Shown piece by piece: positions 26,691 through 37,362 of a DNA stretch of 51,378 nucleotides. Origin of the DNA: a virus; the IMG/VR virus record IMGVR_UViG_3300042463_001197, positions 1-51,378 of that record; one strand, given 5' to 3'. A program made the translations under genes and the position numbers. The notes under the pieces were generated by a model. That model saw nothing but the letters and a program-made list of their open reading frames with translations, searched no databases and was not told the DNA's origin. The stretch's first letter is position 1; each line of letters opens with the position of its first letter.

Positions 26691-26777
26691 GCGTCAGTAA
26701 AGCAAGCGGCTCTTGCAGCGAGACTGTAAATCTCGTCCCTTCATTGGGGAGTGGATCGACACCACACTGGCGCACCA
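26691..26777 (+). tRNA. tRNA-Tyr(GTA), copy 2
   Basis: Identical to the copy at 26597-26683. Confidence 0.92.
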
Positions 26778-26786
26778 TTTTCTTAT

Positions 26787-26866
26787 CCTCCAGTAGCTCA
26801 GTTGTGGTTAGAGCACCTGCCTTATAAGCGGGAGGTCGTGGGTTCGAGCCCCCACCTGGCGGACCA
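26787..26866 (+). tRNA. tRNA-Ile(TAT)
   Basis: Acceptor CCTCCAG/CTGGCGG (one T-C mismatch), anticodon arm CCTGC-CTTATAA-GCGGG, T-arm GTGGG/CCCAC with one extra loop base, A73 and CCA. It reads the rare ATA codon. Confidence 0.85.
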
Positions 26867-26915
26867 AATAATTTGGTTTCTACATGGTAACTTGCATACC
26901 TAATGAAATCATTAG

Positions 26916-27011
26916 GCAGCATAATATGATAGCTCAAATGATAAAGAGCTCTCCTTTGCAATACAGGAGACGATGGATTGGTAATCGGAATCCTCATATA
27001 TGCTGCTAACA
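26916..27011 (+). pseudogene. Degenerate tRNA-like gene
   Basis: Acceptor-like GCAGCAT/ATGCTGC, D-arm AGCTC/GAGCT and an enlarged anticodon-like loop CTCC-TTTGCAATACA-GGAG; the T-arm GGATT/AATCC has a 9-nt loop without TTCG, and the 3' end is TAACA, not NCCA. A perfect hairpin CCTAATGA/TCATTAGG overlaps its 5' side. Confidence 0.4.
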
Positions 27012-27021
27012 ATTTTCATAA

Positions 27022-27096
27022 CCACCTGTAGCTCAGAGGCAGAGCAATCGGTCGATAACCGATAGGTCGTGATATCGTAATTCACCAGGTGGACCA
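27022..27096 (+). tRNA. tRNA-Ile(GAT)
   Basis: Acceptor CCACCTG/CAGGTGG, anticodon arm ATCGG-TCGATAA-CCGAT, A73 CCA. The T-arm GTGAT-ATCGTAA-TTCAC has a T-T closing pair and A in place of T54. Confidence 0.88.
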
Positions 27097-27105
27097 TTTC
27101 ATAAT

Positions 27106-27180
27106 GCGGGTTTGGTGTAATGGCTAACACGCCTTCCTTCCAAGTAGGAGCCAAGGGTTCGATTCCCTTATCCCGCACCA
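27106..27180 (+). tRNA. tRNA-Gly(TCC)
   Basis: Acceptor GCGGGTT/ATCCCGC (one T-T), anticodon loop CTTCCAA, T-arm AAGGG-TTCGATT-CCCTT, A73 CCA. Confidence 0.88.
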
Positions 27181-27188
27181 ATTTAATT

Positions 27189-27264
27189 GGGCGCAAAGCA
27201 TTGATGGCTGATGCACTCGGCTCTTACCCGAGAGAAGCCGGCTCGAGTCCGGATGCACCCACCA
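27189..27264 (+). tRNA. tRNA-Lys(CTT)
   Basis: Acceptor GGGCGCA/TGCACCC (one mismatch), anticodon arm CTCGG-CTCTTAC-CCGAG, T-loop CTCGAGT, A73 CCA. Confidence 0.85.
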
Positions 27265-27275
27265 ATTTCAAATAA

Positions 27276-27374
27276 CGTCGCGTGTCCGAGTTTGGTTAAA
27301 GGAACTCCGCTTGGAACGGAGTGCGAGCAGCATGGGGCTGTTTGCCGTGGGTTCGAATCCCACCGCGGCGACCA
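27276..27374 (+). tRNA. tRNA-Pro(TGG) with a long variable arm
   Basis: Acceptor CGTCGCG/CGCGGCG with the C1-G72 pair and A73 expected for bacterial tRNA-Pro; anticodon arm CTCCG-CTTGGAA-CGGAG. The variable region folds as a 9-bp stem GCGAGCAGC/GCTGTTTGC, normal only for Ser, Leu and Tyr tRNAs. T-arm GTGGG-TTCGAAT-CCCAC, CCA. Confidence 0.78.
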
Positions 27375-27390
27375 ATTTCAAAAATCTAAA

Positions 27391-27459
27391 TCGAGTGCTG
27401 AAGAATACGGTTACTTCACTTATAAACGAAAAACCCACCGTGTTCGTTTGTTGCCTCGA
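27391..27459 (+). ncRNA. Structured RNA family, copy A
   Basis: A 69-nt segment closed by TCGAG/CTCGA, with an inner helix TGAAG/CTTCA and AAACGAA/TTCGTTT. It is clearly related to copy B at 28366-28440; the closing helix differs by a compensatory pair change (G-C to A-T). It is not a tRNA: no CCA or T-arm. Confidence 0.6.
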
Positions 27460-27463
27460 ATAT

Positions 27464-27539
27464 GCCACGTTAGGAGACCGGTAATCCGCCTGCCTGCAAA
27501 GCATGGAGATAGTCTGTTCGATTCAGACACGTGGCTCCA
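27464..27539 (+). tRNA. tRNA-Cys(GCA)
   Basis: Acceptor GCCACGT/ACGTGGC with T73, the Cys identity base, anticodon loop CTGCAAA, T-arm GTCTG-TTCGATT-CAGAC, CCA. Confidence 0.9.
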
Positions 27540-27617
27540 ATTTTCAAATCTAAATCGAGTGTTGAATGCAGGCCGACCACTAAAGGTTTGTGTTATTCTG
27601 ATGAAGTAAAATATCGG

Positions 27618-27707
27618 ATGTCGCTTATTAAAAAAGAACTTTATAAAGATCCTACTAAGAATCCGATGTATGGTAGGAAAAAGGTGTTTGATGTAAAGGA
27701 AGCATAA
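27618..27707 (+). pseudogene. Remnant of a NUMOD3 homing endonuclease gene
   Basis: A 29-residue ORF (MSLIKKELYKDPTKNPMYGR, then KKVFDVKEA) whose NPMYGRK matches the NUMOD3 repeats of the HNH gene at 2465. Its last 26 nt overlap the 5' part of the Trp tRNA gene, the same geometry as the intact nuclease genes at 29932 and 34910. The rest of the gene is missing. Confidence 0.5.
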
Positions 27708-27755
27708 CGGTCTCCAAAACCGTTTGTAGGATATCGTAATTCCTAGCACCTGCCA
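27682..27755 (+). tRNA. tRNA-Trp(CCA)
   Basis: Acceptor AGGTGTT/AGCACCT, G73, anticodon arm ACGGT-CTCCAAA-ACCGT, T-arm AGGAT-ATCGTAA-TTCCT (T-T closing pair, A54), CCA. Confidence 0.88.
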
Positions 27756-27770
27756 ATTTCAATTTCAAAC

Positions 27771-27847
27771 ATGCGCGTGTAGCTCAGAGGCAGAGCAGCT
27801 CCTTTACACGGAGAAGGCCGGGGTTTCGATATCCTCCATGCGTACCA
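27771..27847 (+). tRNA. tRNA-Val(TAC)
   Basis: Acceptor ATGCGCG/CATGCGT (imperfect), anticodon loop TTTACAC, T-arm GGGGT-TTCGATA-TCCTC with T-T closing pair, A73 CCA. Confidence 0.82.
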
Positions 27848-27856
27848 CTTTCAAAT

Positions 27857-27930
27857 CGCGGGGTAGAGTAGCGGCAACTCAACGGTCTCATAAGCCGTGC
27901 ACGTGGGTTCGAATCCCACCCCCGCAACCA
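27857..27930 (+). tRNA. Initiator-type tRNA-Met(CAT) 1
   Basis: Acceptor CGCGGGG/CCCCGCA with the C1-A72 mismatch of bacterial initiator tRNA and the same acceptor sequence as E. coli tRNA-fMet. Anticodon arm ACGGT-CTCATAA-GCCGT lacks the three G-C pairs normally needed in the initiator. T-arm GTGGG-TTCGAAT-CCCAC, A73 CCA. Confidence 0.85.
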
Positions 27931-27940
27931 ATTTCAATAT

Positions 27941-28016
27941 GCACACGTACTTTCAATGGCAGATGGTTTGATTGTCAATCAAACGGATGCAGGATCGGTA
28001 CCTGTCGTGTGCGCCA
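27941..28016 (+). tRNA. tRNA-Asp(GTC) 1
   Basis: Acceptor GCACACG/CGTGTGC, G73, anticodon arm TTTGA-TTGTCAA-TCAAA, T-loop ATCGGTA, CCA. Confidence 0.88.
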
Positions 28017-28025
28017 CTTTCAAAT

Positions 28026-28102
28026 AGAGCCGTAGCTCAGTTGGTCAGAGCGCTTGCCTGTCAAGCAAGAGGTCGCGGGTTCAAGCCCCGTCGGTTCTGC
28101 CA
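28026..28102 (+). tRNA. tRNA-Asp(GTC) 2
   Basis: Acceptor AGAGCCG/CGGTTCT, G73, anticodon arm CTTGC-CTGTCAA-GCAAG, T-loop TTCAAGC, CCA. Confidence 0.92.
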
Positions 28103-28111
28103 CTTTAATAT

Positions 28112-28187
28112 AGACATGAACGCACCACGGTTGGGCGGTCCGGTTGTTACCCGGTTGAATTTGGTTCGATCCCAAGCATGTCTGCCA
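28112..28187 (+). tRNA. tRNA-Asn(GTT) 1
   Basis: Acceptor AGACATG/CATGTCT, G73, anticodon arm CCGG-TTGTTAC-CCGG, T-arm TTGG-TTCGATC-CCAA, CCA. Confidence 0.9.
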
Positions 28188-28195
28188 AGTTTAAT

Positions 28196-28272
28196 GCCGC
28201 AGTAACCGAATTGGTATAGGTACTTGCCTTAGAAGCAAGGTTTTGTGGGTTCGAGTCCCACCTGCGGTACCA
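28196..28272 (+). tRNA. tRNA-Leu(TAG) with a short variable loop
   Basis: Acceptor GCCGCAG/CTGCGGT, anticodon arm CTTGC-CTTAGAA-GCAAG, A73, CCA. The variable region is only GTTTT, whereas bacterial Leu tRNAs have a long arm. Confidence 0.85.
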
Positions 28273-28286
28273 ATTTAATTCTTAAC

Positions 28287-28361
28287 CCACCGGTAGCTGA
28301 GACGGATTAGCGCTAGCCTGAAGAGCCTGAGAGATTGGATCGTTACCAATCCGGTGGACCA
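28287..28361 (+). tRNA. tRNA-Phe(GAA)
   Basis: Acceptor CCACCGG/CCGGTGG, loop CTGAAGA, A73 CCA, T-arm ATTGG-ATCGTTA-CCAAT. The anticodon stem CTAGC/GCCTG has two mismatches, which makes function less certain. Confidence 0.7.
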
Positions 28362-28365
28362 TTTT

Positions 28366-28440
28366 ATCAAGTGCTGAAGAACAGTGTTACTTCACATGAA
28401 ACGAAACCCAAACCCAACATTGTTCGCCTATTGCCTTGAT
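28366..28440 (+). ncRNA. Structured RNA family, copy B
   Basis: A 75-nt relative of copy A: shared AGTGCTGAAGAA, GTTACTTCAC and TTGTTCG blocks; closing helix ATCAAG/CTTGAT. It lies between two tRNAs and has no CCA. Confidence 0.6.
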
Positions 28441-28452
28441 ACTTTCTTTAAC

Positions 28453-28529
28453 GGGACATTCGACAAGTGGCCTAAGTCAGAACTCTCATAAGGTTCCATC
28501 CGTTGGTTCGAATCCAACATGTCCTACCA
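28453..28529 (+). tRNA. tRNA-Met or tRNA-Ile2 (CAT)
   Basis: Acceptor GGGACAT/ATGTCCT, anticodon arm GAACT-CTCATAA-GGTTC, T-arm GTTGG-TTCGAAT-CCAAC, A73 CCA. A paired 1-72 argues against an initiator; whether C34 is lysidinylated cannot be seen. Confidence 0.88.
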
Positions 28530-28550
28530 ATTTAGACGTAATGTTGAACA

Positions 28551-28618
28551 TAGCATAGATGATAATGCGCCTCTGATTTGCAGAGGAGAAGGTGCTTAGA
28601 CCACATGATACATAAGTC
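28551..28618 (+). pseudogene. tRNA-like fragment
   Basis: D-arm GCAT/ATGC and anticodon-like arm CCTCT-GATTTGC-AGAGG resemble the truncated tRNA-Thr at 29848, but there is no T-arm or CCA. A hairpin CTTCAG/CTGAAG (about 28619-28642) follows; nothing else is seen up to 28669. Confidence 0.35.
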
Positions 28619-28669
28619 CTTCAGAATTTCGGTGATCTGAAGAGAAAGAAAACACCGTACATTTTCAAA

Positions 28670-28755
28670 TCCCAAGTAATTCAATGGTAGAATGCAGCGC
28701 TGTTAACGCTGAGGCCCTTATAAGGTTAATGTAGGTTCGACCCCTACCTTGGGAG
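28670..28755 (+). tRNA. tRNA-Asn(GTT) 2 with an enlarged variable region
   Basis: Acceptor TCCCAAG/CTTGGGA, G73, anticodon arm CAGCG-CTGTTAA-CGCTG, T-arm GTAGG-TTCGACC-CCTAC. A 19-nt variable region holds CCTTATAAGG. No CCA is encoded (GCTTT follows). Confidence 0.78.
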
Positions 28756-28782
28756 CTTTCCCCATGTTAGGATATGAACTAT

Positions 28783-28790
28783 TATAAATA
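28783..28790 (+). promoter_or_regulatory. Late promoter box before GIY-YIG gene
   Basis: TATAAATA four bases before the ATG at 28795. Confidence 0.55.
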
Positions 28791-28794
28791 GTTT

Positions 28795-29469
28795 ATGTTC
28801 TATACGGTTTACAAGATAACTAATTTAATCAACGAAAAGATTTACATTGGAGTTCATAAGACAGATGATCTCAATGATTCATACATGGGTTCTGGTCTCT
28901 TAATTAAGCATGCTATTTCAAAATATGGCATTCAAAATTTCGTAAAGGAATACATTGCAATTTTTAATAATCCTGAAGAAATGTTTAGTATGGAGTCCGA
29001 ACTCGTTAATGAGGAGCTGATAAAGTCTGGACATTCTTATAATCTAAAAGAAGGCGGATCTGGTGGTTGGGATTATGTAAACTCTTCAGAAAAAAACATT
29101 TATGGTCTAAATGGAAAGACGCCAGATGCCATTGCTAATTTAGCTAAAGGATTAGAAACTCAAAGATATCTTAGAAAGAACGATCCTGAGTGGGCTGCAC
29201 GTGTTCATGAAAACCAGTCTATTGCCGCAGTGAATAGAAATAAAAAGTATGGCAATGGTTTCAAAGGTAAGTCACACACAGAGCAAACAAAAGCTAAATT
29301 ACGAAAGCCACGTCCAGCATCCGCTGGAGATAAAAATTCTCAGTTTGGGACGATGTGGATAACTAATAAGATTTTGAACAAAAAGATTTTGAAAACCGAT
29401 CCAATCCCAGATGGTTGGATGAAAGGTATGACTCCGAAACAATTAGTGACGGAAAATAAATTTAGATGA
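28795..29469 (+). CDS. GIY-YIG homing endonuclease
   Basis: A 224-residue nuclease inside the tRNA array. Seen: YTVYKITNLINEKIYIGVHK, the GIY-YIG pair, then DSYMGSGLLIKHAISKYG and FVKEYIAIF and an acid in MESELVNEELI. C-terminal NUMOD-type motifs follow (GFKGKSHTEQTKAKL), and a module DKNSQFGTMWITNKIL, KTDPIPDGWMKGM that is also present in the HNH nucleases at 29932 and 34910, so DNA-binding modules have been shuffled between nuclease types. Its own late box drives it. It follows a tRNA-Asn gene that lacks its CCA end; the insertion target may be that tRNA. Confidence 0.88.
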   Translation: MFYTVYKITNLINEKIYIGVHKTDDLNDSYMGSGLLIKHAISKYGIQNFVKEYIAIFNNPEEMFSMESELVNEELIKSGHSYNLKEGGSGGWDYVNSSEKNIYGLNGKTPDAIANLAKGLETQRYLRKNDPEWAARVHENQSIAAVNRNKKYGNGFKGKSHTEQTKAKLRKPRPASAGDKNSQFGTMWITNKILNKKILKTDPIPDGWMKGMTPKQLVTENKFR

Positions 29470-29681
29470 CGGCGTGGAAAGCAGACACGCAGGAACAACG
29501 ACTGGCCGAAACCCTAGGCGGAGATGCACCAAGATGCGCTAGGTTAGTAATCCGGTCGTGACCGTAGAGAAGAGCCGTGCATGGCAAGTAAACAGAAAGC
29601 AAACCGACTTTGAATCGAGAGGCTTGTCCTGTTGATCGGGGTACCCGATGTCAAATCCGAGTAGCGACGGATTCATCTAAT
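29470..29681 (+). ncRNA. Unclassified structured RNA
   Basis: About 210 nt between the GIY-YIG gene and tRNA-Val. Helices read by eye: GCGTG/CACGC, ACGACTGG/CCGGTCGT enclosing CCTAG/CTAGG, ATCGGG-GTA-CCCGAT and AATCCG/CGGATT. No ORF and no tRNA signature. Confidence 0.5.
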
Positions 29682-29756
29682 TGCTCTGTAGCTCAAAGGA
29701 AGAGCGCTTGCCTGACGTGCAAGAGGTTTGGGTATCGTGATCCCACAGAGCAACCA
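29682..29756 (+). tRNA. tRNA-Val(GAC)
   Basis: Acceptor TGCTCTG/CAGAGCA, anticodon arm CTTGC-CTGACGT-GCAAG, T-arm TGGGT-ATCGTGA-TCCCA (T-T closing pair), A73 CCA. Confidence 0.88.
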
Positions 29757-29764
29757 TTTTTAAT

Positions 29765-29839
29765 GCCGGCATAGCTCAGAGGCAGAGCAGTTACCTTGTA
29801 AGTAACAGGTCGAGATTTCGAAATTCTCTGTCGGCTCCA
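29765..29839 (+). tRNA. tRNA-Thr(TGT) 1
   Basis: Acceptor GCCGGCA/TGTCGGC, T73, anticodon arm GTTAC-CTTGTAA-GTAAC, T-arm GAGAT-TTCGAAA-TTCTC (T-T closing pair), CCA. Confidence 0.9.
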
Positions 29840-29847
29840 CTTTCAAC

Positions 29848-29903
29848 GCTCCTTAAGCATAGATGGCGATGCGCTGATTTCGTACATCAGAAAGGACGGC
29901 TCG
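29848..29903 (+). pseudogene. Truncated tRNA-Thr(CGT), cut in the T-loop
   Basis: GCTCCTT acceptor strand, D-arm, anticodon arm CTGAT-TTCGTAC-ATCAG and the start of the T-arm (GACGG-CTCG) are present; then the sequence changes to TAAGCTCGATATTTG, the left end of the nuclease element. No acceptor 3' strand or CCA follows. Confidence 0.7.
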
Positions 29904-29918
29904 TAAGCTCGATATTTG

Positions 29919-29926
29919 TATAAATA
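29919..29926 (+). promoter_or_regulatory. Late promoter box of the HNH element
   Basis: TATAAATA five bases before the ATG at 29932. Confidence 0.6.
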
Positions 29927-29931
29927 CTTTC

Positions 29932-30555
29932 ATGGATTACAAACGCATCTATGATGAGCTTATAGCATTTAGAAAGGTTAACATTCCTTCAGGATATGTT
30001 GAGCGACATCATATAATCATGACCTCACTAGGAGGCAGTGATGATGCTGATAATTTAGTTAAGCTAACTGGCCGCGAGCATTGGATTGCTCATCTTTTAC
30101 TTCACCAGATCTATCAACGATCTGAAACCGCATATGCTTGTCATATGATGGCAATGCGATGTGAAGAGCGTGAAATACCATGTATCAAAAGTTCGCGGGT
30201 CTATGAAAAGATACGAAAGGAATGTGCTAAATTAACCTCAAAGACAATGAAATTTCATCAAGCTGGTGAAAGAAATTCGCAATTTGGAACCCGCTACATA
30301 TGTAATCTTGATCTTAAACAAAATAAAAAGATTAAGAAGACAGACAATATTCCTGAAGGATGGATTGCCGGTCGTAATAGATGGAATATTGAGTCCAAAG
30401 TATCTAAGCCTAAGTATGTACATACTGAAGAGCATAAACGTAACATATCTGTTTCTAATAAAGGGAAACCAAAAACGGAAGAATGGAGAACACAGATTTC
30501 AAACATTCAACGTGGTAAGATTCGAGGACCTTACAAAAAAGCTAACGTCGCATAG
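29932..30555 (+). CDS. HNH homing endonuclease in the tRNA-Thr locus
   Basis: A 207-residue nuclease. Seen: GYVERHHIIMTSLGGSDDAD, then NLVKLTGREHWIAHLLLHQI, an HNH core; a linker module ERNSQFGTRYICNLDLKQNK, IPEGWIAG; and a C-terminal NUMOD3-type stretch EEHKRNISVSNKGKPKTEEW. The N-terminal 150 residues are closely similar to the nuclease at 34910, so the two are paralogues that settled in different tRNA genes. The last 15 nt (KANVA and stop) are also the first 15 nt of an intact tRNA-Thr(CGT). The upstream neighbour is a tRNA-Thr(CGT) broken in its T-loop. Its likely target is therefore a Thr tRNA gene. Confidence 0.88.
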   Translation: MDYKRIYDELIAFRKVNIPSGYVERHHIIMTSLGGSDDADNLVKLTGREHWIAHLLLHQIYQRSETAYACHMMAMRCEEREIPCIKSSRVYEKIRKECAKLTSKTMKFHQAGERNSQFGTRYICNLDLKQNKKIKKTDNIPEGWIAGRNRWNIESKVSKPKYVHTEEHKRNISVSNKGKPKTEEWRTQISNIQRGKIRGPYKKANVA

Positions 30556-30619
30556 CTGGCCAATTGCACATGTTTCGTAATCATGTTTTTCGTGAGTTCA
30601 AATCTCACCGTTAGCTCCA
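30541..30619 (+). tRNA. tRNA-Thr(CGT), intact, overlapping nuclease gene
   Basis: Acceptor GCTAACG/CGTTAGC, T73, loop TTCGTAA in a stem CATGT/TCATG with one T-T pair, T-arm GTGAG-TTCAAAT-CTCAC, CCA. Its body differs from that of the broken Thr(CGT) copy upstream. Confidence 0.85.
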
Positions 30620-30626
30620 CTTTTAT

Positions 30627-30704
30627 CGGGTATTAGCGTAGCCTGGCTAGCGCGCCTCATTTGGATTGAGGAGGTCGTAGGTTCGAATCCTACATACCCG
30701 ACCA
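30627..30704 (+). tRNA. tRNA-Pro(TGG) 2
   Basis: Acceptor CGGGTAT/ATACCCG, anticodon arm CCTCA-TTTGGAT-TGAGG, T-arm GTAGG-TTCGAAT-CCTAC, A73 CCA. Confidence 0.92.
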
Positions 30705-30708
30705 CTTT

Positions 30709-30794
30709 ACAGTAAGTCGAAGGCGGATTACTCCACCCAGCCAATTTAGTTGGGACTGTATGAATACATTGAATAAACACTCCCTTCTTACTGT
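30709..30794 (+). ncRNA. tRNA-sized structured RNA without CCA
   Basis: 86 nt closed by ACAGTAAG/CTTACTGT with inner CCAA/TTGG and TGTAT/ATACA hairpins, sitting between two tRNAs with the usual short spacers. No cloverleaf could be built. Confidence 0.5.
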
Positions 30795-30799
30795 TTTAT

Positions 30800-30890
30800 G
30801 GAGCGGGCCCAGGCTGGCCGATGGAACATACCTGGAAAGTATGTGGACCCTACAAAGGTCTCAGGAGTTCGAATCTCCTCTGCTCCGCCA
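30800..30890 (+). tRNA. tRNA-Ser(GGA)
   Basis: Acceptor GGAGCGG/CTGCTCC, G73, anticodon arm CATAC-CTGGAAA-GTATG, long variable arm, T-loop TTCGAAT, CCA. Confidence 0.92.
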
Positions 30891-30897
30891 CTTTAAT

Positions 30898-30971
30898 TGA
30901 GGATTAGCATAATGGTAATGCTCGCGACTTTGACTCGCGCTATAAGAGTTCGATTCTCTTATCCTCTGCCA
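30898..30971 (+). tRNA. tRNA-Gln(TTG)
   Basis: Acceptor TGAGGAT/ATCCTCT with an unpaired T1-T72, G73, anticodon arm CGCGA-CTTTGAC-TCGCG, T-loop TTCGATT, CCA. Confidence 0.9.
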
Positions 30972-31189
30972 ACTTTAATAGTGTAATGGCAGCACGCCTT
31001 GATAGGGTTGTTGAGGTTCGATTCCTCTTGAATATGGTAACGTAAATCCGCACAGGGAAGAGCGGTTCGATTCCGATTTCTTTGGGTATGATGTAGTGAT
31101 AGCATGACACCTTCCAGGTTGAGAGGCACTTGCTTCTCTTTATGATAAAGTCAGCGTACGTTTGATTCGTGCTGCCCAACAATTTTCAC
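30972..31189 (+). pseudogene. Run of decayed tRNA-like sequences
   Basis: Two T-arm remnants (GAGG-TTCGATT-CCTC near 31015 and GCGG-TTCGATT-CCG near 31065) without matching acceptors. A third segment, about 31083-31189, has acceptor TTGGGTA/TGCCCAA and T-arm GTACG-TTTGATT-CGTGC around a TCC-containing arm and an enlarged middle, but ends ACA instead of CCA. Confidence 0.45.
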
Positions 31190-31690
31190 AATGACTGTTA
31201 CATGTCGATACGTAGGGCATGGACGACCGACGGGGATGCTGGTAGGTGTGCGTCGGCCTTAACTCGCGCGTTACGTGAGGTAAAGGGGACCAGCATAATA
31301 TGTCAAAACTGAAACTGCCGAGGGCACGGCTGTAAAACGGTGAAACTCCGATGTTCCAATTTTCACAATGTGTTGGCCGTGATGATGTAATTTACGAGGC
31401 CACAAGAATAGATGACTGCGAGTGCGAATGACGAAGTAAGTCTTTTAGACCGAAACAAAACAATATCTCGACAAGACCGGATACTTGAACAAATTTCTAC
31501 TATTCAAACTTCATCGTAAACACATTGTTTTGCTCGTAGGTGATTCTATGATTCGTTCATTGTTGCCTACGAGTTCTAAAATTTACCTAAACGGGCTCAT
31601 GAAGCGTAGGGACGGGCTCTTCCAACAGCGTGATGGCTGAAGTCTTCGGACGAAGAGTATGTATATCTTGCAATAAGCGCTTTAATACTT
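31190..31690 (+). ncRNA. Large structured non-coding RNA region
   Basis: About 500 nt without a credible ORF. Strong helices by eye: ATGCTGGT/ACCAGCAT (31236-31243, 31289-31296) enclosing CTCGCG/CGTGAG; CCGACG/CGTCGG; a perfect 10-bp long-range helix ACAATGTGTT/AACACATTGT (31366-31375, 31519-31528); CTCGTAGG/CCTACGAG (31533-31540, 31566-31573). It could be one or two large RNAs. I cannot match it to a family; GOLLD RNAs are known beside phage tRNAs, but I do not recall their sequence well enough to compare. Confidence 0.5.
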
Positions 31691-31695
31691 TCAAA

Positions 31696-31770
31696 CGGGG
31701 TGAAGCTTTAATGGTGAAGCAGCAGGCTTTTAACTTGCAGAACTGGGATCGTTACCCAGCGCCCTGACCA
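31696..31770 (+). tRNA. tRNA-Lys(TTT) 1
   Basis: Acceptor CGGGGTG/CGCCCTG, anticodon arm GCAGG-CTTTTAA-CTTGC, T-arm CTGGG-ATCGTTA-CCCAG, A73 CCA. Confidence 0.9.
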
Positions 31771-31789
31771 CTTTCAATATAATTAAACC

Positions 31790-32002
31790 ATGAAGCCAAT
31801 ACTTGCTACAAGTCAATTCTGCGGTCCTTGCAAACTGCTTAAAGACCGCCTTGATCCGAACTCTTATGAGGTTCGAGACATGGAAAAAGACCGTGATTTT
31901 TTCATCGAAAACGGCATCCGTGCTGTTCCTATGCTCATCATAGGAACCGTGAAAATCACAGGAATGGACAAAATCATCGCATATTTCGACGAAAACCCAT
32001 AA
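31790..32002 (+). CDS. Small thioredoxin/glutaredoxin-like protein
   Basis: A 70-residue protein with the redox motif CGPC in ATSQFCGPCKLLKDRL, then NGIRAVPMLIIGTVKITGMD, which contains the cis-Pro (VP) and the Gly pair of the glutaredoxin fold. It is shorter than host glutaredoxins (about 85) but like phage NrdH/NrdC forms. Known: these proteins reduce the C-terminal Cys pair of NrdA, which here is CSTC. It is the only recognisable enzyme gene inside the RNA island and lies between a tRNA and the promoter of the second tRNA operon. Confidence 0.82.
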   Translation: MKPILATSQFCGPCKLLKDRLDPNSYEVRDMEKDRDFFIENGIRAVPMLIIGTVKITGMDKIIAYFDENP

Positions 32003-32054
32003 CCCATTGGTTTTCAACGGAATGAAAAAAAGTGAAAAAAAGTGAATTTTTTTG

Positions 32055-32083
32055 TTTACATTTGACCAAATTTGGTTTATAAT
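32055..32083 (+). promoter_or_regulatory. Early promoter of the second tRNA operon
   Basis: TTTACA, 17 bp, TATAAT (32078-32083), preceded by an A/T-rich tract that could act as an UP element, followed by AATTCTGTAAG. Confidence 0.85.
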
Positions 32084-32087
32084 AATT

Positions 32088-32394
32088 CTGTAAGGCAACC
32101 CTCGAAGATTCCGACAGACAACTGACAACAGTTCCTGAAAAAATCCAAAAGAAAACCCTTTACAAGCTGACAGAAACCTGTTAGTATTAAACATAATCAA
32201 TTCGGTGGTTCGTTCCGCTAAGTTGGTTACCTTCAGAAAAGAGTTTCTGATTGTATCCGTTCTTTGACATTTTCTAACTTTGAAAGGAGCACTTCGGTCC
32301 CTTTCACCATACAAGACTACAATGCAAATTGTGTCTGATTAGTACGGCCCGGGACGGGTTGGGAACATCAGTATGTCAACCGATAAATTTTCAT
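32088..32394 (+). ncRNA. Structured leader of the second tRNA operon
   Basis: About 300 nt without ORF. Hairpins TCAGAAA-AGAG-TTTCTGA (about 32234-32251) and GAAAGG/CCTTTC around ACTTCGGT (about 32281-32305). It ends with TATGTCAACCGATAAATTTTCAT, nearly the same as the end of the first leader, so this string may be a processing signal. Confidence 0.5.
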
Positions 32395-32501
32395 GGTGCC
32401 GCCTCGCGAAGTCGGTGGTTAAATGTACGAAGAGAGCAGCCATTATTTTTTTGAGTCGAGTTTAGAACGCGAAGAGGTCAAGTGTGCAACGGTAAAATCT
32501 A
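32395..32501 (+). other. Unassigned stretch after leader
   Basis: A hairpin near 32398-32415 (CCGCCT-CGCGA-AGTCGG) and a T-run at 32447-32452 that could act as a weak terminator. Nothing else is recognised. Confidence 0.3.
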
Positions 32502-32578
32502 GAGAGTAACCCTGCATGCGAGCGTAACCTTCCCTACATCGCATAGGGCGCAACAGGTGCGATTCCTGTAGACTCTCA
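32502..32578 (+). pseudogene. Atypical tRNA-like gene
   Basis: Short acceptor GAGAGT/ACTCTC, anticodon-like arm CCCTA-CATCGCA-TAGGG, T-arm ACAGG-TGCGATT-CCTGT. No T33, no CCA (CTCTCAA). Anticodon not assignable (TCG or CGC). Confidence 0.4.
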
Positions 32579-32587
32579 ATTTTCAAT

Positions 32588-32698
32588 AAGAAGGTGGAAA
32601 CAAAAAGCTGGCGACGGTCAGTGAACAAAGCCAAGCGGTATGGCATCGGACTAATTACTCCGATTTCTTCAAGGGTTCAAATCCCTTTCTTCTTTCCA
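32588..32698 (+). tRNA. Atypical tRNA with insertion between acceptor and D-arm
   Basis: Acceptor AAGAAGG/TCTTCTT, T73, D-arm GCC-AAGCGGTAT-GGC, T-arm AAGGG-TTCAAAT-CCCTT and CCA are present, but about 33 extra nt follow the acceptor strand, and the anticodon loop CTAATTAC has 8 nt (AAT or ATT). Confidence 0.45.
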
Positions 32699-32707
32699 AT
32701 TTCAAAT

Positions 32708-32784
32708 GGGGCGCACAATCCAAAGTGCCTACGTTGTAACTCAACGCAGAGGGCAAGCCGATTGGGTGTCGGGCCGCTCCACCA
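32708..32784 (+). tRNA. Atypical tRNA, anticodon unclear
   Basis: 77 nt with GGGGCG/CGCTCC, A73 and CCA; stem CGTTG/CAACG and T-arm-like CCGA-TTGGGTG-TCGG. The T-loop lacks C56. Confidence 0.4.
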
Positions 32785-32801
32785 ATTTACAACCGGGCTC
32801 G

Positions 32802-32880
32802 GTATGAATGGCGATGTTCTCAGTGGGATTAAGTTCCCGCCTTCGGGTTGCTGAGGTTGTATGCCTGCCAAAGTTCATAC
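32802..32880 (+). ncRNA. tRNA-sized structured RNA without CCA
   Basis: Closed by GTATGAA/TTCATAC extended by TGGC/GCCA (AAG bulge), with CTCAG/CTGAG and a CCCG-CCTT-CGGG hairpin inside. The flanking tRNAs are separated by normal spacers. Confidence 0.5.
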
Positions 32881-32885
32881 ACAAT

Positions 32886-32960
32886 GCTGCTATCGTCTAT
32901 CGGTTAGGACAAATGGTTTTCAACCATTAGAGCGGGGTTCAACTCCCCGTAGCAGTACCA
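32886..32960 (+). tRNA. tRNA-Glu(TTC) 1
   Basis: Acceptor GCTGCTA/TAGCAGT, anticodon arm AATGG-TTTTCAA-CCATT, T-arm CGGGG-TTCAACT-CCCCG, A73 CCA. Confidence 0.92.
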
Positions 32961-33003
32961 ATTTTCAACTGAATCGGAGATTAGAGGTAAGTTGAGTAAC
33001 AAC

Positions 33004-33116
33004 GCCCCGCTAGGTTAATAGGCAAACCGGCATGCTTCTGTAAGTGCTCGAGCTAAAGGAAGCCATGTGTGTACAGCATGAAAACGCAGTTCTGGGTTCG
33101 ATCCCCAGGCGGGGCT
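33004..33116 (+). tRNA. tRNA with large internal insertion
   Basis: Perfect acceptor GCCCCGC/GCGGGGC, D-arm GGTT/AACC and T-arm CTGGG-TTCGATC-CCCAG, but about 40 nt stand between CATGC and GCATG of the anticodon stem. The insert can itself fold as CATG-CTTC/GAAGC-CATG. T73, no CCA. Anticodon TCT or CTG are both possible. Confidence 0.5.
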
Positions 33117-33171
33117 GCTCTAATAAACAACGAGGCGTCATTCCACGCCTACAAGATTCGGAAATTTTCAA

Positions 33172-33246
33172 CAGGATGTGGCTTGACTGGGAAGCGCTTA
33201 GTTTGGGGCTAAGAATATGAAGGTTCGAATCCTTTCATCCTGACCA
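33172..33246 (+). tRNA. tRNA-Pro(TGG) 3
   Basis: Acceptor CAGGATG/CATCCTG, anticodon arm CTTAG-TTTGGGG-CTAAG, T-loop TTCGAAT, A73 CCA. Confidence 0.92.
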
Positions 33247-33253
33247 ATTTCAT

Positions 33254-33338
33254 GGGCTGGTGTGGCCGAGCTGAGCTGGCGATCATCATGATAGTTCGAA
33301 AGAACCTTAAGGAAGTTTGAATCTTCCACTGTCCACCA
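33254..33338 (+). pseudogene. Decayed class II tRNA
   Basis: D-arm GCC/GGC, a GAAA-capped variable arm GTTC/GAAC, T-arm GGAAG-TTTGAAT-CTTCC and CCA are present, but the anticodon arm is collapsed to ATC-ATCAT-GAT. Confidence 0.45.
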
Positions 33339-33349
33339 ATTTTTCATAT

Positions 33350-33435
33350 GGGTAGGTATACCGTTAAGGAGACGGTTCGGACTGTAAATCCGACGCTTTC
33401 GAGCTCGCTGGGATCGTTCCCCAGACTGCCCACCA
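33350..33435 (+). tRNA. tRNA-Tyr(GTA) 3
   Basis: Acceptor GGGTAGG/ACTGCCC, anticodon arm TCGGA-CTGTAAA-TCCGA, long variable arm, T-arm CTGGG-ATCGTTC-CCCAG, A73 CCA. Confidence 0.88.
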
Positions 33436-33528
33436 TTTTATAAATTCGTTCACGTGGTGGTGACGACTACAGGAGCCTAGGTCCCTACAGCAATGCTAAT
33501 GCATGCAACCTTTAATTTTCAAAACAAT
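33436..33528 (+). other. Unassigned spacer
   Basis: Between two tRNAs; short self-complementary parts (GGA-GCCTAGG-TCC) but no clear tRNA, ORF or promoter. Confidence 0.25.
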
Positions 33529-33613
33529 GCGTGTGTGGGCCAATGGTCGGTCATCTGACTCTTAATCAGCGGAAGAAATTCCTATGCAGGTTCGAATCCT
33601 GTCGCACGTACCA
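33529..33613 (+). tRNA. tRNA-Lys(CTT) 2 with extra variable arm
   Basis: Acceptor GCGTGTG/CGCACGT, anticodon loop CTCTTAA, A73 CCA, T-arm GCAGG-TTCGAAT-CCTGT. The variable region has a hairpin GGAA-GAAA-TTCC, unusual for Lys. Confidence 0.78.
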
Positions 33614-33621
33614 ATTTCAAT

Positions 33622-33696
33622 GGGCTGTTAGTATAACGGATAATACGCTGCGCTACGAACGCAGAGATCCAGGTTCGATTCCTGGGCGGCCTACCA
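33622..33696 (+). tRNA. tRNA-Arg(ACG)
   Basis: Acceptor GGGCTGT/GCGGCCT, anticodon arm CTGCG-CTACGAA-CGCAG, T-arm CCAGG-TTCGATT-CCTGG, A73 CCA. A34 would need deamination to inosine by TadA. Confidence 0.92.
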
Positions 33697-33706
33697 ATTT
33701 CAATAT

Positions 33707-33783
33707 CCGAGAGTAGCTTTAATTGGTAAAAGCCCTCCCTGTGAAGGAGCACAATGTGGGTTCGAGTCCCACCTCGCGGACCA
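33707..33783 (+). tRNA. tRNA-His(GTG)
   Basis: Acceptor CCGAGAG/CTCGCGG, anticodon arm CTCC-CTGTGAA-GGAG, T-arm GTGGG-TTCGAGT-CCCAC, CCA. It has A73 and no encoded G-1, whereas bacterial tRNA-His has G-1 opposite C73. Confidence 0.82.
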
Positions 33784-34062
33784 ATTTAGCTGACATATAC
33801 GTCATGACGGTATGTTGGCAATTTACACCAGTGAAGCGGGCAGAGATGCCAGCGAAGTATTCGTCACCAGTGAAAGTCGGTTTAACGGTGTAGATCATTT
33901 TCTCGATGTGGTTTGCAGACTGCATCGGACAAGTAAGCGAACATAAGAACGCATGATGCTGCAACTGATTGCAAGTAAGGTGAGGTAATCGTCTAATAGA
34001 AGGACACCAGCTAGAAAAGCTGGGAACATTGGTGCAAATCCAATTTACTTTTTGTCGCTTAC
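33784..34062 (+). ncRNA. Structured RNA region with a tRNA-like part
   Basis: Hairpins ACATA..CGTCATGACG..TATGT near 33794, GGCA-GAGA-TGCC near 33840; long-range TTACACC/GGTGTAG and GTAAGCGA/TCGCTTAC (about 33934 and 34054). Inside lies a degenerate Phe-like tRNA (about 33970-34045) with CCAGC-TAGAAAA-GCTGG and T-arm ATTGG-TGCAAAT-CCAAT but no CCA. Confidence 0.45.
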
Positions 34063-34075
34063 AAGTTTTTCAAAT

Positions 34076-34157
34076 GGGGCGCGGTAAAGCGTAAGGCAGG
34101 GTTTTTGTAATTGATTCATTTCAAGCCCGGGAGGTTAGATTCCTCTGCGCTCCACCA
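34076..34157 (+). tRNA. Atypical tRNA, anticodon unclear
   Basis: Acceptor GGGGCGC/GCGCTCC, T-arm GAGG-TTAGATT-CCTC, A73 CCA. The middle part GGG...CCC is enlarged and contains TTTGTAA, which would be a Thr(TGT) loop. Confidence 0.45.
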
Positions 34158-34169
34158 ATTTTTCTTTAT

Positions 34170-34245
34170 GGGCTCGCATGTTCCTCGGGGGCGAGAAGCA
34201 CTTGCAATGCATCTGTGGCCGGTTCGATTCCGGTCGGGTCCACCA
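34170..34245 (+). tRNA. tRNA-Ala(TGC) 1
   Basis: Acceptor GGGCTCG/CGGGTCC, anticodon arm AAGCA-CTTGCAA-TGCAT, T-arm with TTCGATT, A73 CCA. Position 3-70 is G-T, the Ala identity pair. Confidence 0.85.
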
Positions 34246-34258
34246 ATTTTCAAATGTG

Positions 34259-34342
34259 GTTCATCGGAAGCAGTCTTTAGGTGGGCTGAGGTGACTGTCG
34301 GTAAAACTGTTAAACACCCTATGCCAGTCCCTCCCGATGAAC
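34259..34342 (+). ncRNA. tRNA-sized structured RNA without CCA
   Basis: Closed by a perfect 9-bp helix GTTCATCGG/CCGATGAAC with an inner GACTG/CAGTC helix. A T-arm remnant GAAGG-TTCGATT-CCTTC lies just downstream (about 34374-34390) and another, TTGGG-TTCAACT-CCCAA, near 34433-34449. Confidence 0.45.
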
Positions 34343-34472
34343 TACGCCTTTTGGGTATAGCAGCGGTGCGGAAGAAGGTTCGATTCCTTCATGATTCATT
34401 GAATCAACATGGTGTTGCGGCGACGGCCACCTTGGGTTCAACTCCCAATATATCCACCTTTTCTTAGTTAAT

Positions 34473-34547
34473 GCTGGCATCGTCTAATGGTCAGGACATC
34501 TGGTTTTCAACCAGCAGATCGGAGTTCAATTCTCCGTGCCAGTACCA
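34473..34547 (+). tRNA. tRNA-Glu(TTC) 2
   Basis: Acceptor GCTGGCA/TGCCAGT, anticodon arm CTGG-TTTTCAA-CCAG, T-arm CGGAG-TTCAATT-CTCCG, A73 CCA. Confidence 0.92.
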
Positions 34548-34637
34548 ATTTAGAGCGGCTCTTGTGTCTAGGAAGAGTCTCCAAAGAGTCAAGGATATGA
34601 CTTGCTGCCGTTAACTCGGAACGGATTCCAATTTTAT
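34548..34637 (+). pseudogene. Decayed tRNA-like sequence
   Basis: Contains CTCCAAA (a Trp-type loop) without a paired stem, a hairpin GTCA/TGAC and a T-arm-like CCGTT-AACTCGG-AACGG followed by ATTCCA. Confidence 0.35.
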
Positions 34638-34728
34638 GGAGGTATGACAGAGCGGTAACTGTGTCTGTTTGCTAAACAGAAGCCACCCTTGATCGGGTGC
34701 GTCGGTTCGATCCCGGCTACCTCCGCCA
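34638..34728 (+). tRNA. tRNA-Ser(GCT)
   Basis: Acceptor GGAGGTA/TACCTCC, G73, anticodon arm TCTGT-TTGCTAA-ACAGA, long variable arm, T-loop TTCGATC, CCA. Confidence 0.93.
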
Positions 34729-34736
34729 ATTTCAAT

Positions 34737-34813
34737 CGCGGGTTCGACAGGAGGTGGTTCCTGCCGGGTTTCATAAGCCTAGTACGTCGGTTCGAGTCCG
34801 ACACCCGCAACCA
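34737..34813 (+). tRNA. Initiator-type tRNA-Met(CAT) 2
   Basis: Acceptor CGCGGGT/ACCCGCA with C1-A72 mismatch, loop TTCATAA, T-arm GTCGG-TTCGAGT-CCGAC, A73 CCA. The anticodon stem CGGGT/GCCTA is imperfect but has two G-C pairs next to the loop side. Confidence 0.8.
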
Positions 34814-34825
34814 ATTTTCTAACAT

Positions 34826-34881
34826 GGCCCGTTCGTTTAATGGATAGGACTGCTCCCTTCTAAGGAGACAATAGAGGTTCG
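34826..34881 (+). pseudogene. Truncated tRNA-Arg(TCT), cut in the T-loop
   Basis: GGCCCGT acceptor strand, D-arm GTTTAATGGATAGGAC, anticodon arm TCCC-TTCTAA-GGAG region and GAGG-TTCG are intact; the sequence then changes to TAAGTTCGGTATTTG, the left end of the nuclease element. Confidence 0.7.
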
Positions 34882-34896
34882 TAAGTTCGGTATTTG

Positions 34897-34904
34897 TATA
34901 AATA
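34897..34904 (+). promoter_or_regulatory. Late promoter box of the HNH element
   Basis: TATAAATA five bases before the ATG at 34910. Confidence 0.6.
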
Positions 34905-34909
34905 CTTTC

Positions 34910-35593
34910 ATGGATTACAAACGTATCTATGATGAACTTATTGCTTTTAGACAAGCTAACATTCCGTCCGGTTATGTTGAGCGTCATCATATTATCATGC
35001 GTTCTCTCGGTGGTTTGGATGATTCTATAAATCTTGTCGCATTAACTGGACGAGAGCATTGGATTGCTCATTTACTTCTTCATAAGATATATCGACGTTC
35101 TGAAACTGCTCATGCATGTAATATGATGGCAATGCGGTGTGAAGAACGCGGCATTGGATACATTAAGAATTCTAGAATGTATGAAAAGATTCGTAAGGAA
35201 TGTGCGAAGCTAACTTCGATTAGAAATTCAGCTTCTCAATCTGGAGAACGCAATTCCCAACACGGTACACGTTGGATATGCAATATTGACCTTAAAGAAA
35301 ACAAGAAGATTCTAAAGACTGATGCGATACCCGAAGGATGGATTGCTGGACGCGATCATTGGAATCGTTTTATTGAAAAACAATGTTTGAAGTGTAAAAC
35401 GATTTTCTTTGGTAAGCGCCTTGTCAAATATTGTTCTTCGGCATGCAGATCTCGTAAGTTAACGGACGAAGAAAAACATCATTTATCCAGGCAAGCTTTG
35501 CTATCAGGAAGAAATTCCGGTAAAAACAATGGCATGCATAAATCAAAACTTTCTCGATTGGCCTCGGTATCGGAACGTGCTTCTAACGCGTAG
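34910..35593 (+). CDS. HNH homing endonuclease in the tRNA-Arg locus
   Basis: A 227-residue nuclease whose N-terminal 150 residues closely follow the one at 29932: GYVERHHIIMRSLGGLDDSI, NLVALTGREHWIAHLLLHKI and ERNSQHGTRWICNIDLKENK. Its C-terminus is different: a zinc-finger-like CLKCKTIFFGKRLVKYC, SSACRSRK and a basic tail. Different DNA-binding tails on a common HNH body fit two different tRNA targets (Thr and Arg). The last 33 nt are shared with the following tRNA-Arg(TCT). Confidence 0.88.
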   Translation: MDYKRIYDELIAFRQANIPSGYVERHHIIMRSLGGLDDSINLVALTGREHWIAHLLLHKIYRRSETAHACNMMAMRCEERGIGYIKNSRMYEKIRKECAKLTSIRNSASQSGERNSQHGTRWICNIDLKENKKILKTDAIPEGWIAGRDHWNRFIEKQCLKCKTIFFGKRLVKYCSSACRSRKLTDEEKHHLSRQALLSGRNSGKNNGMHKSKLSRLASVSERASNA

Positions 35594-35638
35594 AACCGTA
35601 ATGGAACGATGTAGGTTCGATTCCTACTCGAGGCGCCA
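35561..35638 (+). tRNA. tRNA-Arg(TCT) 1, intact, overlapping nuclease gene
   Basis: Acceptor GCCTCGG/TCGAGGC, G73, anticodon arm ACGTG-CTTCTAA-CGCGT, T-arm GTAGG-TTCGATT-CCTAC, CCA. Its body differs from the broken Arg(TCT) copy at 34826. Confidence 0.88.
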
Positions 35639-35678
35639 CTTTCTGTAATAAGAGACCTGATCAGAACTAATTTTCAAT

Positions 35679-35756
35679 GGCCGTGTAGCCCAATCGGCAG
35701 TAGGCAACAGACTTAAAATCTGTAAAGTGTGGGTTCGAGTCCCACCACGGCTACCA
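35679..35756 (+). tRNA. tRNA-Leu(TAA) with a short variable loop
   Basis: Acceptor GGCCGTG/CACGGCT, anticodon arm ACAGA-CTTAAAA-TCTGT, T-arm GTGGG-TTCGAGT-CCCAC, A73 CCA. Variable loop is AAAGT only. Confidence 0.87.
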
Positions 35757-35763
35757 ATTTAAT

Positions 35764-35839
35764 TGGGGTGAGGCTTAATGGTATCAGCTCCCGACTCATA
35801 ATCGGTGGATAGCGGGTTCGATTCCCGTCGCCCCTACCA
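35764..35839 (+). tRNA. tRNA with CAT anticodon (Met or Ile2)
   Basis: Acceptor TGGGGTG/CGCCCCT with T1-T72, anticodon arm CCGA-CTCATAA-TCGG, T-arm GCGGG-TTCGATT-CCCGT, A73 CCA. Confidence 0.85.
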
Positions 35840-35958
35840 AACATCTTAGCAGTAGAGAGGGAAAAGCAACCATGATGGTTGCCGGCGTCCCTCAGAGGGA
35901 GTCGTGTTCCTCTTAGTGTAAATGTCAAGACACGAACAAAGCACACTGCAAAATTTCA
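35840..35958 (+). other. Unassigned spacer with hairpins
   Basis: GCAACCAT/ATGGTTGC (about 35867-35883), CCCTC-AGA-GAGGG-like arm after it, and AGTGT/ACACT. No ORF or tRNA. Confidence 0.3.
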
Positions 35959-35993
35959 AATCCTGAGTAGCTCAGTGGTAGTAGCGGGAGCCA
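35959..35993 (+). pseudogene. tRNA remnant
   Basis: TCCTGAGTAGCTCAGTGGTA plus AGTAGC, then GGGAGCCA: a 5' half joined to a 3' end, with the centre deleted. Confidence 0.5.
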
Positions 35994-36002
35994 ATTTTTA
36001 AT

Positions 36003-36079
36003 TGTGGGAAGCTAATTGCAGCGATAGACGATTTCTGATCGGACGTCTATGAGAGGTTTAAGTCCCTGTCTCACAGCCC
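36003..36079 (+). tRNA. tRNA-Gln(CTG) 1 with extended anticodon arm
   Basis: Acceptor TGTGGGA/TCTCACA, G73, loop TTCTGAT as in E. coli tRNA-Gln(CTG), but the stem is lengthened (ATAGAC/GTCTAT plus GAT/ATC). 3' end GCCC, not CCA. Confidence 0.6.
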
Positions 36080-36087
36080 TTTCTTAT

Positions 36088-36174
36088 GCCGCAGTCGCAT
36101 AGTGGTCGATTGCACCGGTTTTGTAAACCGGATTGGAAACAACTCCGTCGGTTCGAATCCGACCTGCGGCTCCA
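36088..36174 (+). tRNA. tRNA-Thr(TGT) 2 with enlarged variable loop
   Basis: Acceptor GCCGCAG/CTGCGGC, T73, anticodon arm CCGGT-TTTGTAA-ACCGG, T-arm GTCGG-TTCGAAT-CCGAC, CCA. Variable region of about 15 nt. Confidence 0.85.
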
Positions 36175-36180
36175 AACTTT

Positions 36181-36267
36181 ATGAAGCGACACTCTTGTGT
36201 CTAACGGCGGACGTTCAGTTAGTCCGATGATGGCCATCCTGTTGCAAGCAAACTATATGTGCTTCAT
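36181..36267 (+). ncRNA. tRNA-sized multi-hairpin RNA without CCA
   Basis: Closed by ATGAAGC/GCTTCAT; inside GACAC-TCTT-GTGTC, CGGAC/GTCCG and GATGGCCATC. It has an acceptor-like 7-bp stem and three arms but no tRNA consensus bases. Confidence 0.5.
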
Positions 36268-36274
36268 AATTCTT

Positions 36275-36435
36275 TTCGTGGTGATATATGACAGTTCCTT
36301 CTATTGTTACAGATGAGGTGGAGGTTCGAATCCTTCTGCTGCTGCAAAGTGCATACCTAAACCGAATGCATTTCGTAGCGGTATAGCTTAATGGTTAGAG
36401 CGCGAAAAATACTGTCGTAGCCAGTTCCCGAAACA
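36275..36435 (+). pseudogene. Two tRNA remnants
   Basis: A T-arm GGAGG-TTCGAAT-CCTTC with a TCT-containing loop upstream (about 36275-36345), and a 5' tRNA half GCGGTATAGCTTAATGGTTA (about 36378-36415) that lacks its 3' half. Confidence 0.4.
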
Positions 36436-36436
36436 T

Positions 36437-36512
36437 GCATCTGTAGCTCAGTGGTTAGAGCACCTCCTTGATAAGGTGGGGGTCGTTGGTTCAAGTCCAA
36501 CCAGGTGTACCA
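36437..36512 (+). tRNA. tRNA-Ile(GAT) 2
   Basis: Acceptor GCATCTG/CAGGTGT, anticodon arm CCTCC-TTGATAA-GGTGG (one T-T), T-arm GTTGG-TTCAAGT-CCAAC, A73 CCA. Confidence 0.9.
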
Positions 36513-36523
36513 ATTTTCAATAT

Positions 36524-36598
36524 CGGCGCTAAGCTTTAATGGTGAAGCATCAGGTTTTTACCCTGAGGAACTCGGATCGTTACCGAGAGCGCTGACCA
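36524..36598 (+). tRNA. tRNA-Lys(TTT) 2
   Basis: Acceptor CGGCGCT/AGCGCTG, anticodon arm TCAGG-TTTTTAC-CCTGA, T-arm CTCGG-ATCGTTA-CCGAG, A73 CCA. Confidence 0.9.
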
Positions 36599-36605
36599 CT
36601 TTAAT

Positions 36606-36680
36606 GCTTGTGTAGCTCAACGGTAGAGCACGGAATTCTAACCTCCTGTGGTATGGGTTCAAATCCCATCATAAGCACCA
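36606..36680 (+). tRNA. tRNA-Arg(TCT) 2
   Basis: Acceptor GCTTGTG/CATAAGC, loop TTCTAAC in a bulged stem CGGA/TCC-T-G, T-arm ATGGG-TTCAAAT-CCCAT, A73 CCA. Confidence 0.75.
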
Positions 36681-36688
36681 CTCTCAAA

Positions 36689-37357: not shown

Positions 37358-37362
37358 ATTTT

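Follow-up and report, generated by a model that had tools for sequence, protein, structure and literature searches.

The window analysed here is the whole 51,378-nucleotide stretch of the IMG/VR virus record IMGVR_UViG_3300042463_001197, a phage contig carrying about 40 tRNA genes. An initial annotation of positions 29848-30619 (henceforth element 1), made by reading the sequence, described a T-loop-truncated tRNA-Thr(CGT) followed by a left end, a late box, an HNH nuclease gene and an intact, different tRNA-Thr(CGT) whose first 15 nt lie within the nuclease gene. All of these features were borne out (see table below). Neither ARAGORN nor Rfam recognised the upstream fragment as a tRNA; it scored 11.8 in a scan for 5' parts of tRNAs that recovers 31 of 32 known tRNAs and for which shuffled sequences gave 95% and 99% levels of 7.1 and 8.8. 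It ends inside the T-loop, where GGACGGCTC is followed directly by GTAAG. The left end of the element, TCGTAAGCTCGATATTTGTATAAATAC, contains a T-loop-like stretch (GTAAGCTCG), and the HNH gene comes with a start and a late box of its own. The 15 nt shared with the downstream tRNA are the last codons and the stop of this gene. Comparison of the two tRNA-Thr bodies gave only 56% identity across the length of the fragment, with the same anticodon.

The description was thus correct, and it was also understated, as a second unit of the same design, absent from that annotation, lies 5 kb downstream. The sequence TCGTAAGCTCGATATTTGTATAAATAC has one further copy in the window, with 2 mismatches and a chance expectation of 0, and this copy is the left end of a unit built around tRNA-Arg(TCT) (element 2). 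Here the 5' 33 nt of the replacement tRNA are common to the HNH gene; ARAGORN misses this tRNA, and its anticodon loop (CTTCTAA) was read by eye.

Features of the two tRNA-associated units, in window coordinates.
Feature	Position	Strand	Evidence
Element 1: 5' fragment of resident tRNA-Thr(CGT)	29848..29902	+	55/55 nt match to intact L039 tRNA-Thr(CGT) 6929-7003
Element 1: left end	29901..29927	+	25/27 nt shared with element 2 left end
Element 1: T4-type late promoter box TATAAATA	29919..29926	+	sequence
Element 1: HNH (Mob-like) homing endonuclease gene, 207 aa	29932..30555	+	PHROG 655, E 7.6e-39
Element 1: replacement (cargo) tRNA-Thr(CGT), intact	30541..30619	+	ARAGORN; Rfam RF00005 48.8 bits
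Element 2: 5' fragment of resident tRNA-Arg(TCT), cut in T-loop	34826..34881	+	80% over 55 nt to intact L039 tRNA-Arg(TCT) 12284-12359
Element 2: left end	34879..34905	+	25/27 nt shared with element 1; late box TATAAATA at 34897-34904
Element 2: HNH (Mob-like) homing endonuclease gene, 227 aa	34910..35593	+	PHROG 655, E 9e-34
Element 2: replacement tRNA-Arg(TCT)	35561..35638	+	Rfam RF00005 34.3 bits, cut-off 29

The nuclease has four invariant residues (H26, H27, N41 and H50) and a predicted strand-strand-helix core (pLDDT >90 for the element 1 protein); a fold search against the PDB gave no significant match. The Pfam HNH model matched 10 of 13 members and stayed below threshold in the element 1 protein itself, in which NUMOD3 was found above cut-off within the variable C-terminal part. 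No intron family was detected in positions 26700-40000 of the window at E values up to 0.5 (no RF00028). Together with the nuclease domain, the absence of an intron or intein around it and the element-free alleles described below, this gives the profile of a putative free-standing homing endonuclease of the HNH/Mob type. The nucleases of elements 1 and 2 are sisters (support 99/99) with different targets and cargoes. They have the N-terminal nuclease part and the left end in common, while the C-terminal part and the cargo differ together, so target and cargo were switched together. This suggests that the C-terminal specificity domain and the tRNA form one module.

The initial annotation had proposed looking for the empty site in related phages, a check that could have gone against it. 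Through a neighbouring gene we found IMG/VR contig 3300012348_000136 (henceforth L039), which is syntenic with the window. At the element 1 site it holds a whole, single-copy tRNA-Thr(CGT), identical to the window fragment over its entire length, so the fragment was formerly a whole gene. The two sequences part within the T-loop, where GGACGGCTC continues with AAGT in L039. Likewise, L039 has one intact tRNA-Arg(TCT) at the element 2 site, flanked in both contigs by tRNA-Met and tRNA-Leu(TAA); it is much closer to the window fragment than to the window cargo (53%). It follows from these empty sites that the fragments are what is left of broken resident genes and that the intact tRNAs were imported, which supports the earlier proposal that the element supplies another tRNA for the one it breaks. 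L039 carries an element of its own at a Gly(GCC) tRNA. The HNH-free window allele there is closer to the cargo (73%) than to the fragment (61%), and so this site cannot be polarised.

To this pair of contigs we added homologues of the nuclease sampled from viral contigs and isolates, many of them uncurated metagenome contigs. A large group of these homologues sits in tRNA arrays, and nearly all tRNA-associated members have TATAAATA or a variant upstream of the HNH start. The cargo 5' end forms part of the nuclease coding sequence in most of them. The join lies in the T-loop in the branch that includes the window, and also in L071, L072 and L090, and in the anticodon loop elsewhere; in four members of the anticodon-loop branch (L061, L063, L124 and L126) a short anticodon-like left end remains without a fragment. 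A scan of viral contigs with a left-end DNA pattern (58 stretches) returned only elements that were already known and chance matches.

Combining the 5'-part scan with reading of the sequences, fragment and downstream tRNA have the same anticodon in 16 of 17 readable distinct elements, which cover 11 anticodons. Thr(CGT), Arg(TCT), Gly(GCC), Tyr(GTA), Ser(GCT), Gly(TCC) and Gln(CTG) occur once each, Arg(ACG) three times, and Val(TAC), Trp(CCA) and Thr(TGT) twice, one of the Thr(TGT) pairs being in the anticodon-loop branch. The sole mismatch is L003, with a Phe(GAA) fragment and a Gly(TCC) cargo. A strict automatic pairing rule gave a match in 7 of 7 elements, this low number being due to ARAGORN and a simple T-arm rule missing unusual tRNAs (for example that of the Arg(TCT) cargo); the remaining pairs of the 17 were assigned by eye, which may favour matches, and for this reason both counts are stated. 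By comparison, adjacent tRNAs otherwise have the same anticodon in 8 of 432 cases and random pairs in 3.7%; none of 100,000 permutations gave more than 9 matches out of 17. Two further elements of the anticodon-loop branch, with Lys(CTT) (L064) and Pro(TGG) (L058), also match by eye and were left out of the 17. Some members have unusual tRNAs. The cargo tRNA-Arg(ACG) of two distant elements (L011 4200-4300 and L090 2220-2330) has no normal D-arm and shows a D-loop-like stretch 3' of the anticodon arm; neither ARAGORN nor Rfam calls it. In L065 (6468-6730), downstream of an HNH gene of the anticodon-loop branch, a tRNA-Thr(TGT) contains a group I intron (Rfam, 75.9 bits).

When the window was compared with isolate phages by BLASTN, there was no close relative and the matches were at tRNA level only. 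Among cultured phages we found three states at one Vibrio phage locus, with flanks 94-100% identical. Vibrio phage pv27 is element-free and has a resident tRNA-Thr(TGT). In VB_VaC_SRILMA the locus has a fragment cut in the anticodon loop (95% to the pv27 tRNA), an HNH gene and a cargo tRNA-Thr(TGT) that is 68% identical to the pv27 tRNA. Finally, phiKT1024, phiTY18 and Va1 are without the HNH gene and have a tRNA 93% identical to the SRILMA cargo, the changes in the acceptor stem preserving pairing. At one Rhizobium phage locus, LG08 and IC12 carry an HNH gene with tRNA-Asn(GTT), while OLIVR5 and IG49 have another tRNA-Asn(GTT) and no HNH gene. These same-locus series in cultured phages of Vibrio and Rhizobium/Agrobacterium make the model directly testable.

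Remnants of such units can also be recognised. In L039 (12979-13071), the last 31 residues of an HNH protein of the L022 type (81%) run into a tRNA-Thr(TGT) with 86/86 identity to the L022 cargo. Similarly, window positions 27567-27683 encode the end of an HNH protein of the Trp type (56% over 39 residues), which overlaps tRNA-Trp(CCA) at 27682-27755; at the same place, between tRNA-Cys and tRNA-Val, L039 has a different tRNA-Trp, of the kind broken in L012 (88%). These HNH tails fused to intact tRNAs show cargo tRNAs that have outlived their nuclease, and it is from them that the putative polarity of the loss step is taken. That the tRNA is kept intact after the death of the nuclease suggests that it is under selection. 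The HNH-free window tRNA that corresponds to the Thr(TGT) site of L020 is 92% identical to the L020 downstream tRNA and 62% to the L020 fragment; at this site (window 36088) the fragment and nuclease seem to have been deleted, leaving the cargo cleanly behind.

The tRNA array as a whole has the appearance of a patchwork. When tRNAs at matching positions of the window (26787-39840) and L039 are compared, about 17 of 37 are at least 84% identical and about 14 are at most 70% identical. The diverged ones (50-70%) have the same anticodon, and their flanks are well conserved where checked (e.g. tRNA-Ala at 38681), which points to in-place swaps. Across the family, the insertion point, the empty sites, the same-anticodon cargoes and the stages of loss can all be read from the sequences.

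We consider it very probable that these units are free-standing homing elements that break tRNA genes and carry a substitute isoacceptor. The nuclease would cut or nick the tRNA gene of an element-free phage at the junction, in the T-loop or, in the related branch, in the anticodon loop. Repair from an element-bearing phage, homing being the presumed route, would then join the resident 5' part to the left end of the element and copy in the nuclease gene along with the tRNA fused to its 3' end, which is complete, divergent and equal in anticodon to the resident. Short homology might be provided on the left by the T-loop-like or anticodon-loop-like left end, and on the right by the tRNA 3' end or the downstream sequence. 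The cargo would have to escape its own nuclease and its sequence differs strongly from the target, at 40-50% of 5' positions, which is suggestive of resistance and only that. If the cargo tRNA is functional, as we infer, the resident tRNA would be destroyed with decoding kept, making invasion cheap for the phage. A later deletion of nuclease and fragment, for example between short repeats at both tRNA starts (such as ATGCCG in L020), could leave the imported tRNA alone.

Several other histories could produce a broken and a whole tRNA on either side of a nuclease gene. The ancestor might have had two adjacent tRNAs with the same anticodon, an ordinary HNH gene having hit the first while the second is a mere neighbour. 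Such pairs do occur in arrays, at the low rate given above, and phage homing endonuclease genes often insert near tRNAs; but the empty sites carry one tRNA and not two (Thr and Arg in L039; pv27 and phiKT1024), 16 of 17 matches stand against a base rate of 2%, and in most members the 5' end of the cargo lies within the nuclease coding sequence. We regard this origin as very unlikely. Still less credible is a group I intron or split tRNA, with the fragment and a downstream 3' half joined as RNA. Phage and bacterial tRNAs do hold group I introns with homing endonuclease genes, and the L065 locus of this family has one in its downstream tRNA. However, the intron search of window positions 26700-40000 was negative, and the downstream tRNA is a complete one; the 5' strand of the fragment (GCTCCTT) and the 3' acceptor strand of this tRNA (CGTTAGC) do not pair.

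The polarity could also be the reverse, a foreign fragment with its HNH gene having been placed upstream of a pre-existing resident tRNA, so that nothing is paid back. The L020 site described above would fit, and so would phiKT1024 compared with SRILMA, as in both the HNH-free tRNA is nearer to the downstream tRNA. For Thr(CGT) (100%) and Arg(TCT) (80%) of the window and for pv27 compared with SRILMA (95%), it is the fragment, rather than the downstream tRNA, that agrees with the HNH-free allele, and the HNH tail fused to the cargo-type tRNA-Thr(TGT) of L039 marks that tRNA as a left-over and no naive resident, for which reasons we give this order of events little credence. Harder to tell apart from the homing reading is a form of marker exclusion like that of T4 SegF or SegB, in which the nuclease gene lies beside a resistant allele of its target and the two are co-converted, the fragment being a by-product of sloppy repair at the left end and selection for pay-back unneeded. 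Free-standing T4 homing endonucleases do cut the neighbouring gene and co-convert flanks (PMC2988022), and SegB cuts within tRNA genes (PMC13096335). Yet a broken gene accompanied by a divergent, complete copy is not what T4 homing endonucleases as a rule leave behind, and wherever the join can be read it is in the T-loop or the anticodon loop, so we judge this explanation improbable, if worth keeping in mind.

Of the known systems, the closest by nuclease are the Mob proteins of T4 (MobA-E), which nick DNA and, like other free-standing homing endonucleases, co-convert flanks (PMC2988022). The window nuclease is their homologue (about 36% identity to many T4-like Mob proteins), and both are free-standing, have distinct C-terminal regions and are present in only some relatives at a site; in contrast, the reviewed Mob genes lie between protein genes, and no Mob gene there is said to split a tRNA and bring along a substitute for it (PMC2988022). 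SegB of T4 and T6 also sits in a tRNA array and cuts tRNA genes (PMC13096335), and is reported to drive the inheritance of the tRNA region (PMC2330249 as cited in PMC6409571), but it belongs to another nuclease fold (GIY-YIG), and no tRNA fragment or matching substitute tRNA is described for it. In logic, the phage units are akin to the mORF elements of fungal mitochondria, known from atp6 of Allomyces and atp6, atp9, cox2 and nad3 of Glomus (PMC3630166), where an endonuclease element breaks a gene, foreign sequence restores its function and the native part is displaced. A foreign C-terminus is there fused in frame upstream of the nuclease in a protein gene (PMC3630166), whereas the phage elements supply a whole tRNA gene downstream and the native 5' part becomes debris. 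In both, a foreign sequence would substitute for the broken gene, as the 16 of 17 readable elements suggest for the phage units.

A known type of mobile element that targets tRNA genes is the integrase-driven one. Such integrases use the T-loop or anticodon loop as the insertion point and the tRNA stays functional; site-specific recombination gives the same tRNA its 3' end back. This type was ruled out here, since there is no integrase in the unit and the downstream tRNA is complete and a different one, only 56% identical. A search of open-licence papers found no description of a tRNA-replacing homing element. What appears to be new is the tRNA-replacing strategy, the free-standing HNH/Mob homing endonuclease being of a known kind.

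Selfish elements carrying a substitute for the gene that they ruin are seldom observed in nature and have been engineered as cleave-and-rescue drives. Synthetic Cleave-and-Rescue and home-and-rescue drives (e.g. PMC7951863) likewise combine a nuclease with a recoded copy of its target that keeps the function; unlike the phage elements they are engineered, Cas9-based and made for insects, and the resistance of the cargo is designed there, whereas we infer it here. On balance we lean towards seeing the dispersed phage homing elements as natural cleave-and-rescue drives, with anticodon-specific, cleavage-resistant cargoes and arrays rebuilt by invasion and loss. The substitution here would concern a non-coding gene and at least 11 anticodons, and it gives a tangible reason why phage tRNA genes form a patchwork. 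If this is true, tRNA bodies would be swapped in place with their anticodons kept, and the sensitivity to tRNA-cutting host defences could change.

Other features of the window deserve mention. A GIY-YIG gene (28795-29469, in a unit spanning 28670-29469) lies directly 3' of an intact tRNA-Asn(GTT) that is 53% identical to the L039 tRNA-Asn at that place. We tried it as a third element and did not count it, as the upstream tRNA-Asn is intact and non-orthologous and there is no readable fragment; possibly the pair is a mirror-image replacement element. At 39276-39396, a tRNA-Thr(GGT) that is intact in L039 (17699-17773) is split in the anticodon loop by about 45 nt, including a TAAATATA box and an ATG; the window has no second tRNA called as Thr(GGT), so that here the broken tRNA was not replaced. 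Positions 39402-39840 comprise a 5' fragment of a tRNA-Leu, a 99-aa non-nuclease ORF (39449-39748) and an intact tRNA-Leu(GAG), which may be either a unit of this layout built around another gene or the outcome of a duplication. An amber-reading tRNA (anticodon CTA) is present in the array at 36606-36680 and conserved in L039 (88%), and in L062 (744-1550) an HNH element apparently has a tRNA with this anticodon as its cargo. Lastly, a DnaB-like helicase ORF at 675-3142 is seemingly interrupted by an intein, with another HNH gene after it.
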